Positions 1,637 through 5,439 of a stretch of 55,033 nucleotides of DNA are shown here, in pieces. Origin of the DNA: Candidatus Gastranaerophilales bacterium (GTDB lineage Bacteria; Cyanobacteriota; Vampirovibrionia; Gastranaerophilales; Gastranaerophilaceae). Position numbers and translations under genes: made by a program. Each line of letters begins with the position of its first letter. Position 1 is the first letter of the stretch. Location of the stretch: the NCBI GenBank assembly GCA_944322625.1, contig CALUPN010000002.1:1-55033 (forward strand), in the 5' to 3' direction. Below the pieces are notes generated by a model. That model had not been told where the DNA came from, did not search any database, and worked only from the letters and a program-made list of their open reading frames with translations.

Positions 1637-3106
1637 TTATGAATATACAAACGGCGGACCGTTTTTGATTTCAAAAAGAATATTATCAGCTATGATTTTA
1701 AGTTCCTTCGGTGATTTTCCGTCTTGTTTTTGTTTCATAAATTCTTCACATAAGGGCTCTATAGCGGATTCTTTTTTTGCTTTAAAATTCCTTAATTCAG
1801 TTGATACGAGGCGCTTTTGAAGATTTAATTCAATATCGGCATTATATTTTTTTACCTGAACGTCTTTAACAGCTTCCGCCGCAGTTTTTCCTCCGTAAGC
1901 CAGTGCTGAAATTCCCGCTATTCCGAAAAATAGGTTTTTGAATTGCGGGTTTTTAGGATTCATTAACCAGTCATAGAAAAAAGACAGGTAGTCATTTACG
2001 TGTGAAAAGTATGTGATTTTATTTCGTCCGGAACCGCCCATCATCGGGTTAACTTTTTCTGTTGCCTGATTCATTACATCTTTCAGGTGATTAATATATT
2101 CTGTTTTTTCGTCAGCGTTGAGATTCATTTTATTAATTGTTTTTTCGACTTCTTCCGGACGGGCATAAATTGATTCAAGCATATTCTCTATAAGAAGTTT
2201 ATATGCTTCTTTCCCTTTTACTATTTCACCTTTATGTCCTTCAAGGTTTTCTATCGGTTTTCCGTTATTAAAATCTTCTATTACTTTATCAAGTCCTTTT
2301 TTAGTATTTTTAATACCTTTTGATATAAATTCGTCACTTTTTCTTATATTCCTTGCTGAGAAATATCCCAGTCCGAGTATGCTTAACAAGGTAAATCCTC
2401 CAAGCAAAAATAAATGCCTGTAATTTTCAGAAGTTTTTTCATCTTGATTTCCTTTGAATGCTAATTCTTCAGAGAAATTTCGAGCTTTAGTAGAGAGCAT
2501 GCTTCTTATAATTTGTATTTTCCCGGAGAAAGCCTGTGTTTCAACTGCTATAAGGTTTTCTTGCAGATTCTTTTGAATATCTGCTTCTTGTTTTTTTACC
2601 CAAACATCTCTGAACCCGTCTATAAAAATTTTTCCCATAAAAGCCATAGACCCCAGTGTTATAACTCCTAGCGATGCCAGTATGGTTTTGCGGTTGGGTG
2701 ATTGAATCATACTGAAAATGCTTTGGTGGATTTCATTATTTATGCAGTGATTACGCGTGATTCCAGGTAGCAGATACTCTTTTGTGCTTTCCAATTTTCC
2801 TTTTGAAAACTTTTTCATCATAGCAGTGAATCCGCCTAAAAGAGCCATTACTCCGATAGTTGCCGTACAAACAGGAATAAGCGGGTTATGTTTTTTTTCT
2901 TCTTTTTCAAAAAGTTTGGGAGGTAAATTGATTTCTTTATTGGAAATAACAAGTGTGTCGCAAGTTTCATTAAGGGGGGTAAATGTGTTTGTAGAACTGT
3001 CAAAGCTTCCTGCTTTTATACCTTCAAGCAGCGGGTCTTTAACGAATGTATTAACGATTACTCCTTCTTTAATAAAAGTATCATTGCGTTTTTGAGTATT
3101 AGTCAT
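1637..3106 (-). CDS. Hypothetical membrane protein with a duplicated module
   Basis: No family recognised. The protein (489 residues from the ATG at 3106; an ATG at 3157 would overlap the upstream gene by 29 bases) has about four hydrophobic segments: near VCTATIGVMALLGGF, ASLGVITLGSMAFM, FLLGGFTLLSILGLG and FFGIAGISALAYGG. A module occurs twice. A hydrophobic segment is followed by a stretch of pattern DVxVKKxxADIxxNLQxxLxxxE, first in the middle of the protein and again near the C-terminus. It follows the CPHG/CPIC gene at 3129-3821 at close spacing and is probably co-transcribed from the riboswitch-bearing promoter. Neither candidate start has a strong ribosome site, so the start is uncertain. 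Confidence 0.75.
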   Translation of the reverse strand: MTNTQKRNDTFIKEGVIVNTFVKDPLLEGIKAGSFDSSTNTFTPLNETCDTLVISNKEINLPPKLFEKEEKKHNPLIPVCTATIGVMALLGGFTAMMKKFSKGKLESTKEYLLPGITRNHCINNEIHQSIFSMIQSPNRKTILASLGVITLGSMAFMGKIFIDGFRDVWVKKQEADIQKNLQENLIAVETQAFSGKIQIIRSMLSTKARNFSEELAFKGNQDEKTSENYRHLFLLGGFTLLSILGLGYFSARNIRKSDEFISKGIKNTKKGLDKVIEDFNNGKPIENLEGHKGEIVKGKEAYKLLIENMLESIYARPEEVEKTINKMNLNADEKTEYINHLKDVMNQATEKVNPMMGGSGRNKITYFSHVNDYLSFFYDWLMNPKNPQFKNLFFGIAGISALAYGGKTAAEAVKDVQVKKYNADIELNLQKRLVSTELRNFKAKKESAIEPLCEEFMKQKQDGKSPKELKIIADNILFEIKNGPPFVYS

Positions 3107-3128
3107 ATTTTTCTGGTGCCTTGAAGTT

Positions 3129-3821
3129 TCAAGATCCTGGTTTATCTTCGGTATCATCCTTTTTCTTTTCCCTAATCTTTTGTATGAATTTTTTTAAGTT
3201 AAAAATTTTCTTATCGTCATCAACTTTTGTATCATCGTCTTTTGCATTATCTTTTTTGAAAATTTTAAATAAATTTTCAAATTTAGATTTTATCGAACCT
3301 GCCAATTCTGCGGCCTTTTTTTCGATAAAAGCTTTTGCTTCTCCGAAAATGGCATTTAACTTATCTTGAATGTCTGTAAATTTTTGTTTTATCTGCGATA
3401 GTTTGTCCGCAATATTAGAAATTATATCGGGTATTGTACTGATTTTATTTATTACCGGTGCAATGATATTAATAATTGTATAAGCAACAGGTTTGAAAAT
3501 AAAGCTGTTTGAAATTTTATTTGCAAAATCTATCATTTTTTGTGCCATTTTTTCAAGATTTTGCTGAAATTCTAATACTGCTTGTGCGTGTAGTTTAAGA
3601 TTATTTTCATGGTTTTCAATTCTTTGTGCTCTGGCTTTCATCATTGCTCCGACCATTGCGCAATGATGATAACTCCATTCTCCGGCTTTTTGCGGTCGTT
3701 CTCCAGCTCTGCCACCCCCCCCGCCGCCCATACCGGAACATATAGGACAGGCTCCGGGAGACATTCCGTGAGGACATAGTCCGCTTTTTACACTATTTAC
3801 ATTTGAAGTTACACCAGCCAA
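3129..3821 (-). CDS. Hypothetical protein with CPHG...CPIC zinc-knuckle-like N-terminus
   Basis: A 230-residue protein of unknown function. Near residues 16-30 it has CPHGMSPGACPICSG followed by a run of six glycines. The paired CPH and CPxC motifs could bind a metal through three Cys and a His. Residues around 65-200 are amphipathic and coiled-coil-like with an isoleucine-rich middle (IINIIAPVINKISTIPDIIS). The tail is highly charged (Asp/Lys). The start is TTG, chosen because AAAGAAAGG lies seven bases upstream and no ATG fits. That ribosome site lies inside a hairpin at the end of a cobalamin-riboswitch-like leader. The metal site is inferred from the motif only. Confidence 0.8.
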   Translation of the reverse strand: MAGVTSNVNSVKSGLCPHGMSPGACPICSGMGGGGGGRAGERPQKAGEWSYHHCAMVGAMMKARAQRIENHENNLKLHAQAVLEFQQNLEKMAQKMIDFANKISNSFIFKPVAYTIINIIAPVINKISTIPDIISNIADKLSQIKQKFTDIQDKLNAIFGEAKAFIEKKAAELAGSIKSKFENLFKIFKKDNAKDDDTKVDDDKKIFNLKKFIQKIREKKKDDTEDKPGS

Positions 3822-3861
3822 TAAAAAACCTTTCTTTATAGCATTTGTGCCACAAAGAAAG
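3822..3861 (-). terminator. Leader hairpin that overlaps the ribosome site of the CPHG/CPIC gene
   Basis: On the minus strand CTTTCTTT (3861-3854) pairs with AAAGAAAG (3837-3830), followed by six T residues ending next to the TTG start. A nested TTTGT/ACAAA pairing strengthens it. The 3' arm is the Shine-Dalgarno sequence itself. The hairpin could work as an intrinsic terminator or by hiding the ribosome site, so it is a natural expression platform for the riboswitch upstream. Confidence 0.6.
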
Positions 3862-3917
3862 CTTTATGCAGTACTGTGACTCGCAGTCTTGCATGAATTT
3901 GTAGTTTATACAGCAGG

Positions 3918-4056
3918 GGCAGACCCGGAAGAAAATTTTTGTAAATGAAAATTTTACCTATGTCTGCCTACCATATTCCTACGTACGTAGTACTCCGGCT
4001 TTAACGGTTGCGGCACAGTCACGGATTTTCACCGTAGTTTCCTCGATATTCTTTTT
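3918..4056 (-). promoter_or_regulatory. Cobalamin-class riboswitch (candidate)
   Basis: On the minus strand the region begins GAGGAAACTACGGTGAAAA, then TCCGTGACTGTGCCGCAACCG, and soon AGCCGGAGTACTAC. These match the conserved cobalamin aptamer core: GGAA, then stem ACGG / CCGU closing a UGAAAAU loop, then GACUGU-CCGCAAC-GU, then the AGYC-GG-A box. The last box resembles the AdoCbl-variant/class II form more than the classic one. A 7-bp stem, GGCAGAC (3968-3962) with GTCTGCC (3924-3918), follows. The predicted transcript starts just upstream. No classic B12 gene follows; the first gene downstream is the CPHG/CPIC gene. Confidence 0.75.
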
Positions 4057-4062
4057 TTCTAT

Positions 4063-4091
4063 ATCTTATGATAATAATATATGTTTGTCAA
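4063..4091 (-). promoter_or_regulatory. Sigma-70-type promoter of the riboswitch leader
   Basis: Minus strand: TTGACA (4091-4086), a 17-base spacer, then TAAGAT (4068-4063). The expected transcription start is near 4056, a few bases before the riboswitch core. This is the best promoter match in the window. Confidence 0.75.
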
Positions 4092-4179: not shown

Positions 4180-4445
4180 ACTATTAGTTTTCCCTTGCGG
4201 GCTGGCACCCATCCCAACCTTGTCTTGGATTTGCTCCACGCTCACAGAGCTTCACCTTTAAGCCTTACGGCTTAGTCTGTTCGCTATTCGGACTTTATAT
4301 TCTTATTTACCCCTCCCATTTACCTCTTCTATTTACCCCTTCCATTTACCCCTCCGTCCGCAAATCCGCTCCCTCAAGGGAAGGGGGGTTGTGCGTTAGG
4401 CGTGTGAAAGACTCCCTCCCTTTTGAGGGAGGGTTGGGGTGGGTG
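4180..4445. repeat. Palindromic dispersed repeat, family B copy 3
   Basis: The termini CACCCATCCCAACC (4206-4219) and GGTTGGGGTGGGTG (4432-4445) are inverted repeats with one mismatch. Inner hairpins pair CTCCCTC with GAGGGAG. The flank TTTTCCCTTGCGGGCT is shared with the copy near 32571-32694. The middle holds three ATTTACCCC units at 4305, 4331 and 4344. There is no reading frame. It looks like a MITE-like or REP-like element occupying most of the gene-free stretch 4092-4557. Confidence 0.7.
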
Positions 4446-4557: not shown

Positions 4558-5439
4558 ATGACTAATTCTAATTCAATTGATTACAGTTCTTGGAGTGGTT
4601 TAAAGAAGTTAATTGCTGCATCTTGCGACAAAGATAAAAACGGCAAACTCGAGAAAACCGCTAATTTTGATGAAATAAGTATTTTTAATGCAACATACGA
4701 AAAATCTATGGCTACCCAACAGGAAATGTTAGACCTTTCAATAAAGATGCCTACTGATGCTATACATTCTTACGCAGCAGAAACGGCAAGAAAAGCAGAA
4801 TTGTTATTAAACGGTCCGAAGAAAGATATTGATATTCAACAGAAATTATTGCAAGATGTTGTTGATAAGCAACAAATCTGTGCAGATATGTATAAAAAAT
4901 GGAGCGGAATATTTCCAAAATCGCCTCTAAAACTTGATTTTTATGAATATTTATACGATGTTATATCTACTTTAAAAATAGAAATTAAAGAAGAAGCTTG
5001 GGATAAAGAACATTATACTTCTCCAATAGAACAAACTATGGATGAGGTCATTGCAATTTTTGCAGGAGAATCACAATTAAATCCAAAAGCAAAGAACGGT
5101 ATTTATCATGGAATTTTTCAACTGGCAAATCCCGGACTTACTGAAGCAAAGCAATGGGCAAAAAAACATAAAGATGTTCCGGGTATGAAAAACATCAATA
5201 AAGCAATGACATTAAACGAATTTCGAAATGCTTCCGGCAGATTACAATTAGATTATCTTGTTGCATATATAGGTAAGTGTAAAGAATACTCAAAAATCGG
5301 TAAGGATGAAAGTATCACTCCTGGACAATTATGGGCAATGATTAAATACCCGTTTAAAGGTAAAAATAGAACACTGATTATTCAAAAAACTGCCTCTATA
5401 AGTAATGTATTTAAAAAAAGCAGAATTCCGCAAGGTTAA
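4558..5439 (+). CDS. Lysozyme-like (transglycosylase SLT-type) domain protein, putative
   Basis: A 293-residue protein with no signal peptide. Residues about 165-260 resemble the goose-lysozyme/SLT fold as seen in phage-type transglycosylases: FAGESQLNPKAKNG with a candidate catalytic Glu, then GIFQLANPGL, and later a RLQLDYLVAYI helix. Near the N-terminus DKDKNGKLEK looks like an EF-hand-type calcium loop (residues about 24-33). A peptidoglycan-cleaving role is inferred; without a signal sequence it may be exported another way or act as a toxin-like effector. The ATG is preceded by GAAAGGA at a wide spacing of about 13. The stop overlaps the stop of the convergent mannosidase gene by four bases. 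Confidence 0.65.
   Translation: MTNSNSIDYSSWSGLKKLIAASCDKDKNGKLEKTANFDEISIFNATYEKSMATQQEMLDLSIKMPTDAIHSYAAETARKAELLLNGPKKDIDIQQKLLQDVVDKQQICADMYKKWSGIFPKSPLKLDFYEYLYDVISTLKIEIKEEAWDKEHYTSPIEQTMDEVIAIFAGESQLNPKAKNGIYHGIFQLANPGLTEAKQWAKKHKDVPGMKNINKAMTLNEFRNASGRLQLDYLVAYIGKCKEYSKIGKDESITPGQLWAMIKYPFKGKNRTLIIQKTASISNVFKKSRIPQG

Follow-up and report, generated by a model that had tools for sequence, protein, structure and literature searches.

A predicted cobamide riboswitch of the AdoCbl-II class precedes an orphan operon in Gastranaerophilales

The locus described here lies in a stretch of 55,033 nucleotides (the window) from a Candidatus Gastranaerophilales bacterium (GenBank assembly GCA_944322625.1, contig CALUPN010000002.1). 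Gastranaerophilales are non-photosynthetic relatives of cyanobacteria, and gut communities are shaped by cobamide supply. On the minus strand of the window, a promoter is followed by a riboswitch aptamer, a structured leader and two overlapping genes, labeled G1 and G2. In the direction of transcription, the features are as follows:

4063 to 4091, minus strand: sigma-70-type promoter TTGACA-17-TAAGAT, with 10 of 12 consensus bases, read from the sequence
3980 to 4058, minus strand: cobalamin riboswitch aptamer of the AdoCbl-II class (RF01689, 41.4 bits, E 1.5e-6)
4021 to 4035, minus strand: aptamer P3 hairpin, ACGG-UGAAAAU-CCGU; four of five pairs show changes on both sides among 40 leaders
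4008 to 4017, minus strand: aptamer strand UGUGCCGCAA (P5/L5), predicted anti-sequestor partner, with 10 contiguous pairs (one G-U) to 3855-3846
3995 to 4007, minus strand: aptamer P6 hairpin, CCG-UUAAAGC-CGG; the middle pair occurs as C-G, U-A, A-U and G-C, and all cells are paired
3918 to 3968, minus strand: variable insertion with a 7-bp stem (3968-3962 with 3924-3918), found in some close relatives only
3868 to 3892, minus strand: P13-type hairpin GCAAGACUG-CGAGUCA-CAGUACUGC, whose loop is a candidate L13; a similar loop occurs in nrdD leaders
3830 to 3861, minus strand: putative ribosome-site sequestering, terminator-like hairpin of 14 pairs followed by T6 (fold z -4.2 over the last 63 nt)
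3846 to 3855, minus strand: putative anti-sequestor strand UUGUGGCACA, complementary to 4017-4008, with partner covariation in relatives
3829 to 3835, minus strand: Shine-Dalgarno sequence AGAAAGG, 7 nt ahead of the start codon, from the sequence
3129 to 3821, minus strand: G1, a helical CPHG/CPIC protein of 230 amino acids from an orphan family, with a TTG start
1637 to 3157, minus strand: G2, a membrane protein of 506 amino acids with an internal repeat

Because G2 starts at 3157 and G1 ends at 3129, the two genes overlap by 29 nt and their joint translation is probable.

A sequence-only reading of the window had proposed that a cobalamin-type riboswitch controls these genes, and its observation as a whole was confirmed by the RF01689 match, the leader hairpins and the gene start. 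The minus-strand promoter that it named is present at 4091-4063, and because a scan gave 3 promoter-like sites versus 1.5 expected, the promoter is weak evidence when taken alone. The cobalamin core is real: the window matches RF01689 over 81 positions with a score above the curated gathering cut-off of 36.5 bits. This is the sole Rfam match within the window and the only AdoCbl-II copy in the genome above the cut-off. When the other cobalamin models that had been suggested for checking are compared, the window reaches threshold for RF01689 only, the best of the clan, and is not above threshold for RF01482 or RF00174 (class I AdoCbl and Cobalamin); a search of genome G000 with RF00174 gave no match at E <= 0.01. 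A covariance model built from 40 leaders (R1), the window included among them, scores the window copy at 78.1 bits. A second site in G000 (C86, 16.4 bits, sub-threshold) lies beside HipA-like genes, is unmatched by R1 and was rejected.

Conservation of the aptamer was evaluated with an alignment of 40 aptamers taken from G1 leaders, in which the core positions are invariant. Across P3, P5 and P6, 94% of cells are paired and 55 cells are changed on both sides, and the covariation score is 0.374 versus 0.108 in shuffled alignments and no more than 0.145 in controls with slid partners. These compensatory changes keep P3 and P6. None of 500 shuffles reaches 55 double-change cells, a count that is not a probability given that the sequences are related; the slid controls preserve this relatedness and score far lower. 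Several mismatches in P1 of the window copy are what a chance resemblance, or a decayed and functionless riboswitch, would display. Such an origin has a negligible probability in view of the compensatory changes, the conservation before homologs and the conserved platform, and chance itself is already refuted.

The linkage of the riboswitch to G1 and G2 was then followed in 80 loci of G1 homologs, drawn from Gastranaerophilales and from further records of gut metagenomes, and in 144 genomes. Full-length G2 is found in 75 of the 80 loci, and 118 of the genomes searched carry the riboswitch. Within the genus of the window, a single riboswitch of this kind occurs in 62 of 65 genomes; the fetched loci show G1 as the gene downstream of it in all 62, and G2 is present in these 62 genomes and absent from all three that have no switch. 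The association of switch and G1 holds down to approximately 35% protein identity and into other families. The leader is thus kept upstream of homologous genes, the comparison by which the sequence-only reading had asked to be judged. A first regular-expression search recovered the core in only about 20 of the 80 leaders, which proved to be an artefact, as a looser pattern and the covariance model show it in nearly all. Similarly, G090 was rejected as a case of G1-G2 without a switch when R1 found a riboswitch carrying an insertion, and in G103 G2 is present with no switch detected beside it.

Taken together, a cobamide riboswitch very probably governs G1-G2. The computations establish the aptamer and how far it is conserved, the structures that compete with each other (described below) and the linkage to G1-G2, and the regulatory part is well supported. 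That support extends to the earlier proposal of a new B12-linked system, to the degree that regulation speaks for it.

Several observations were made along the way at individual loci. In G007 (L029 / L166), the G2 gene is broken by stop codons into pieces of 341 and 132 amino acids, possibly a pseudogene or an assembly error. Repeated GGGGTAAAT units occur at 4300-4360 of the window, upstream of the promoter, and also inside leaders L013, L014 and L036, which suggests a small intergenic repeat invading the variable part of the leader. On the plus strand, the divergent neighbour gene (4558-5439) matches phage tail lysozyme only weakly, below the threshold.

The identity of the ligand is predicted by association. 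The genes nrdDG, btuBCD, metE, cbiM and nrdA are standard cobalamin regulon genes, and in relatives within the class this aptamer is found upstream of nrdDG, btuB-btuC-btuD, metE, cbiM (with a porin in front of it) and nrdA, whereas the window gene behind it is an orphan. The ligand is therefore very probably a cobamide. A change of ligand in this lineage, such that cobamides are no longer sensed, would fit the little apparent B12 use in the genus. This explanation is very improbable considering the invariant core and the fact that the nrdD (L124) and btuB (L137) riboswitches are recovered, with E below 1e-14, by a model for which G1 leaders were the sole input.

The survey of relatives also yielded regulatory arrangements that stand apart from G1-G2. 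Cobalamin riboswitches of the class (L123-L158 and L214) govern nrdDG, btuBCD, metE and cbiM, a textbook-type regulon for which the literature search found no published report in the group; the search also found nothing joining Melainabacteria, cobalamin and riboswitches. In other orders, the same aptamer precedes a different orphan operon (L216, L217, L218, L248, L249, L251 and L252, with the first gene also at L219 and L250), which encodes a repeat protein of approximately 480-590 amino acids starting around SLQKALSFYLTG and then a GGGGGG protein of approximately 215-255 amino acids. Neither protein has a Pfam match, and the families bearing this operon have CobS. Its reading as a diverged G1-G2 is unsupported, with profile comparison probabilities of 5.7% and 0.3%. 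In G123, RF01482 riboswitches (L160:3736-3587 and L161:191-339) are located before an acyl-CoA / hydroxyisobutyrate-type operon and an apparent methylcitrate prpB-prpC-prpD set.

Downstream of the aptamer, the leader contains several elements of differing conservation. The 7-bp stem of the sequence-only reading exists (GGCAGAC/GTCTGCC) and falls outside the core; because the stretch that holds it is shared by L004, L005, L007 and L009 only, it counts as a variable insertion. The reading's hairpin with the ribosome site as its 3' arm is confirmed (14 pairs, 3861-3830) and is followed by the T-run GTTTTTTATT, and the TTG start at 3821 is kept or replaced by ATG in homologs. Two elements had been missed: the P13-type hairpin (3892-3868), whose CGAGUCA-loop form is conserved among leaders, and the complement between 3855-3846 and 4017-4008. 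The second of these makes the sequestor hairpin and the anti-sequestor pairing mutually exclusive. Since the 5' arm of the hairpin is complementary to 10 nt of the aptamer core, a B12 OFF-switch is predicted.

In the proposed mechanism, the aptamer strand UGUGCCGCAA would pair with the hairpin 5' arm UUGUGGCACA when no ligand is present, leaving the ribosome site open. On cobamide binding, the aptamer would retain its strand and the downstream hairpin would close over the ribosome site, such that the AdoCbl-II class riboswitch represses the G1-G2 operon. A contact made by the loop of the CGAGUCA hairpin would probably help the aptamer to keep its strand in the bound state, and the T-run may add termination of transcription as a second layer. 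For the loop contact itself, CGGG loops could pair with the CCG of L5 and the CGAG form could do so only with a mismatch; L5 is nearly invariant and the pair shows no covariation.

Several results bear on this mechanism. Forced-fold energies, which are approximate, are -69.3 when the hairpin is closed, -68.6 when P3 and P6 form and -65.1 for the anti-sequestor form, and this closeness in the folding model is as would be expected of a switch. A purine of the aptamer changes in step with the pyrimidine predicted to pair with it downstream (A-T 20, G-C 17, G-T wobble 8, A-C 3; Fisher p 1.4e-4), with the qualification that in some leaders this pyrimidine has an alternative partner within the hairpin. 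Of the 74 leaders in which a ribosome site was located, 62 have at least 80% of it paired. A sister group of leaders uses another complement, UCCUCUUU against AGAGGAAA at the 5' side of the aptamer, which appears to follow the same logic to the same outcome with different strands. In nrdD leaders, the ribosome site is inside the P13-type hairpin itself (CCUCGAGACAGGAG). An OFF switch that acts through sequestration of the ribosome site is thus the likely mode of control.

The proteins encoded by the operon were compared with known families and folds. Both fall outside every known family, and the sequence-only reading had called their function unknown: searches of G1 and G2 against Pfam, NCBIfam and solved structures returned no match beyond coiled-coil noise. 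In G1, residues C16, H18, C25 and C28 (CPHG...ACPIC) are invariant in 68 homologs, as is C54, and helices follow. The zinc knuckle proposed earlier is a candidate: this invariant CxH...CxxC ligand set fits a metal knuckle, and no described zinc-binding family in Pfam was matched. Family-averaged hydropathy gives G2 three clear membrane segments (96-114, 159-177 and 250-268), and a possible fourth near 404-425 was judged by eye. The two halves of its internal repeat align with E 2.4e-7 and share the motif VKK..ADI..NLQ..L. AlphaFold models of G1 and G2 are poor (pTM 0.37 and 0.38), and the G2 model has no PDB fold match at E <= 0.001. A third gene, G3 (approximately 140-175 amino acids; 53 fetched loci, for example L045:7225-7752), follows G2 in many genera and has the motif SPNIQTFLAGIYRK...FDPNEEIGGAIL. 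It has no Pfam family, was not detected in the window and is absent from most loci of the window's genus.

The genes of B12 use and supply were also surveyed, with CobS, BtuC and CbiQ forming the search set for a source. NrdJ is an adenosylcobalamin-dependent enzyme. Within the family, NrdJ is found in 17 genomes and BtuC in two only (G076 and G082), and no genome gave a CobS or CbiQ match. This leaves 16 NrdJ genomes without detected CobS, BtuC or CbiQ (ECF), and G2 is present in all 16. Across the order, NrdJ genomes comprise 29 with G2 and no alternative source (CobS or BtuC), 3 with both (G076, G091 and G096, each with BtuC), 4 with the alternative only and 1 with neither (G088), a distribution with a Fisher p of 0.0025. 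Because the genomes are related, this p value and that of the purine-pyrimidine changes overstate independence, and many assemblies are incomplete. A BtuC candidate in G097 (28 bits) was judged from its sequence to be another ABC permease and was excluded from these counts. By co-occurrence, G2 and CobS/BtuC tend to replace each other in the NrdJ genomes of the order.

The genus of the window presents a different picture. No NrdJ, QueG, CobS, BtuC or CbiQ was detected in it, MetH is in 3 of 22 genomes, and the main visible B12 user in the window's genome is a B12-binding radical-SAM protein; for these reasons the B12 need of the genus looks small. Yet the switch and operon are in nearly all of its genomes, and G1 and G2 look structural (helical and membrane, respectively) more than enzymatic. 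These are the grounds of the main rival explanation, that cobamide serves as an environmental cue, a sign of B12-producing gut neighbours, for switching an envelope or attachment structure with no role in B12 metabolism. This explanation is unlikely overall and retains real weight because the genus shows few B12 users. It is set against sister genera that are true B12 users, with the operon beside NrdJ and riboswitch-controlled nrdDG, and against the frequent lack of G2 where BtuC or CobS is present. In addition, the signal must reach the cytoplasm, so an importer would still be needed.

Another explanation is suggested by the B12-independent isozymes that this riboswitch class often governs in the bacterial class, namely that G1-G2 substitutes or compensates for a B12-dependent function in B12 scarcity, as nrdDG and metE do. 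It is quite improbable: the searches of G1 and G2 turned up neither a catalytic family nor a catalytic motif or fold, and no tested B12 enzyme tracks G2, which occurs without NrdJ in the genus and with NrdJ in other genera.

The best explanation of the whole, held with slightly less than even confidence, is a cobamide-repressed G1-G2 operon under an AdoCbl-II riboswitch that most likely acts in cobamide acquisition or handling at the cell envelope. Here G1, with its metal-knuckle and helical parts, and G2, with its duplicated membrane segment and long helices, would form an envelope cobamide system that is turned off at sufficiency. The riboswitch part of the earlier interpretation is supported, and its "cobalamin or cobalt handling at the envelope" is plausible: G2 is a membrane protein and accompanies NrdJ in every family genome that has no known B12 source. 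Considered separately, a role of G1-G2 in cobamide acquisition or handling is evenly balanced. Direct uptake by the two proteins, which we infer at a greater remove than either the ligand or the OFF direction, is a possibility of distinctly lower standing. The control of G1-G2 is of the kind that an importer would be expected to have; no transporter resembles G2, and neither protein matches BtuB, BtuC, BtuD, BtuF or ECF components in Pfam or NCBIfam. More tentative still is the full proposal of a new system for cobamide uptake, made up of G1-G2 and in many genera also of G3, that has no relation to the BtuBCDF and ECF transporters. It would serve B12-dependent Gastranaerophilales, and a cobalamin riboswitch whose anti-sequestor is specific to the lineage would turn it off.

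The B12 source of Gastranaerophilales is unexplained by known genes, as the 16 NrdJ genomes of the family illustrate, and the riboswitch offers a direct, testable way into the function of an orphan operon found almost throughout the group. Should the uptake role be true, the operon would represent a new import system for cobamides; if not, it would be a clear case of B12 as a signal. The exchange of anti-sequestors before one and the same gene also offers a natural series for studying change in a riboswitch platform.

The locus can be compared with several known systems. It shares with the AdoCbl-II family (RF01689) a compact aptamer of 79 nt, the core GGAAA / GGUGAAA / CUGU-CCGCAAC and the P3 and P6 helices, and differs in controlling orphan genes and in placing the ribosome site outside the P13-type hairpin, in another hairpin further downstream that has a predicted anti-sequestor of its own. 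In relatives (L137, L144, L148, L156 and L214), this aptamer class also controls the BtuB/BtuCDF importer. The importer has no detectable sequence similarity to G1 or G2, which tend to occur without BtuC. In the env8HyCbl and E. coli btuB translational riboswitches, a kissing loop stabilises P13 and thereby promotes the ribosome-site hairpin (PMC10653944). The window leader resembles them in its P13-like hairpin and in its predicted coupling of ribosome-site sequestration to the aptamer, whereas its predicted anti-sequestor is the P5/L5 strand of the aptamer; among the leaders of the class, those of nrdD seem more like env8. The P. megaterium metE riboswitch likewise has a P13 separate from a terminator-type hairpin and a competing pairing, with the antiterminator made by the 3' side of P13 (PMC10653944). 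Here the aptamer strand would take that part instead, and in sister genera the 5' side of the aptamer would do so. Finally, in M. tuberculosis a B12 riboswitch is reported to precede ppe2, a gene of uncertain function (PMC11260477), which parallels the arrangement here. That organism is unrelated, and in Gastranaerophilales the linkage spans a bacterial order and involves the only such riboswitch in the genus.
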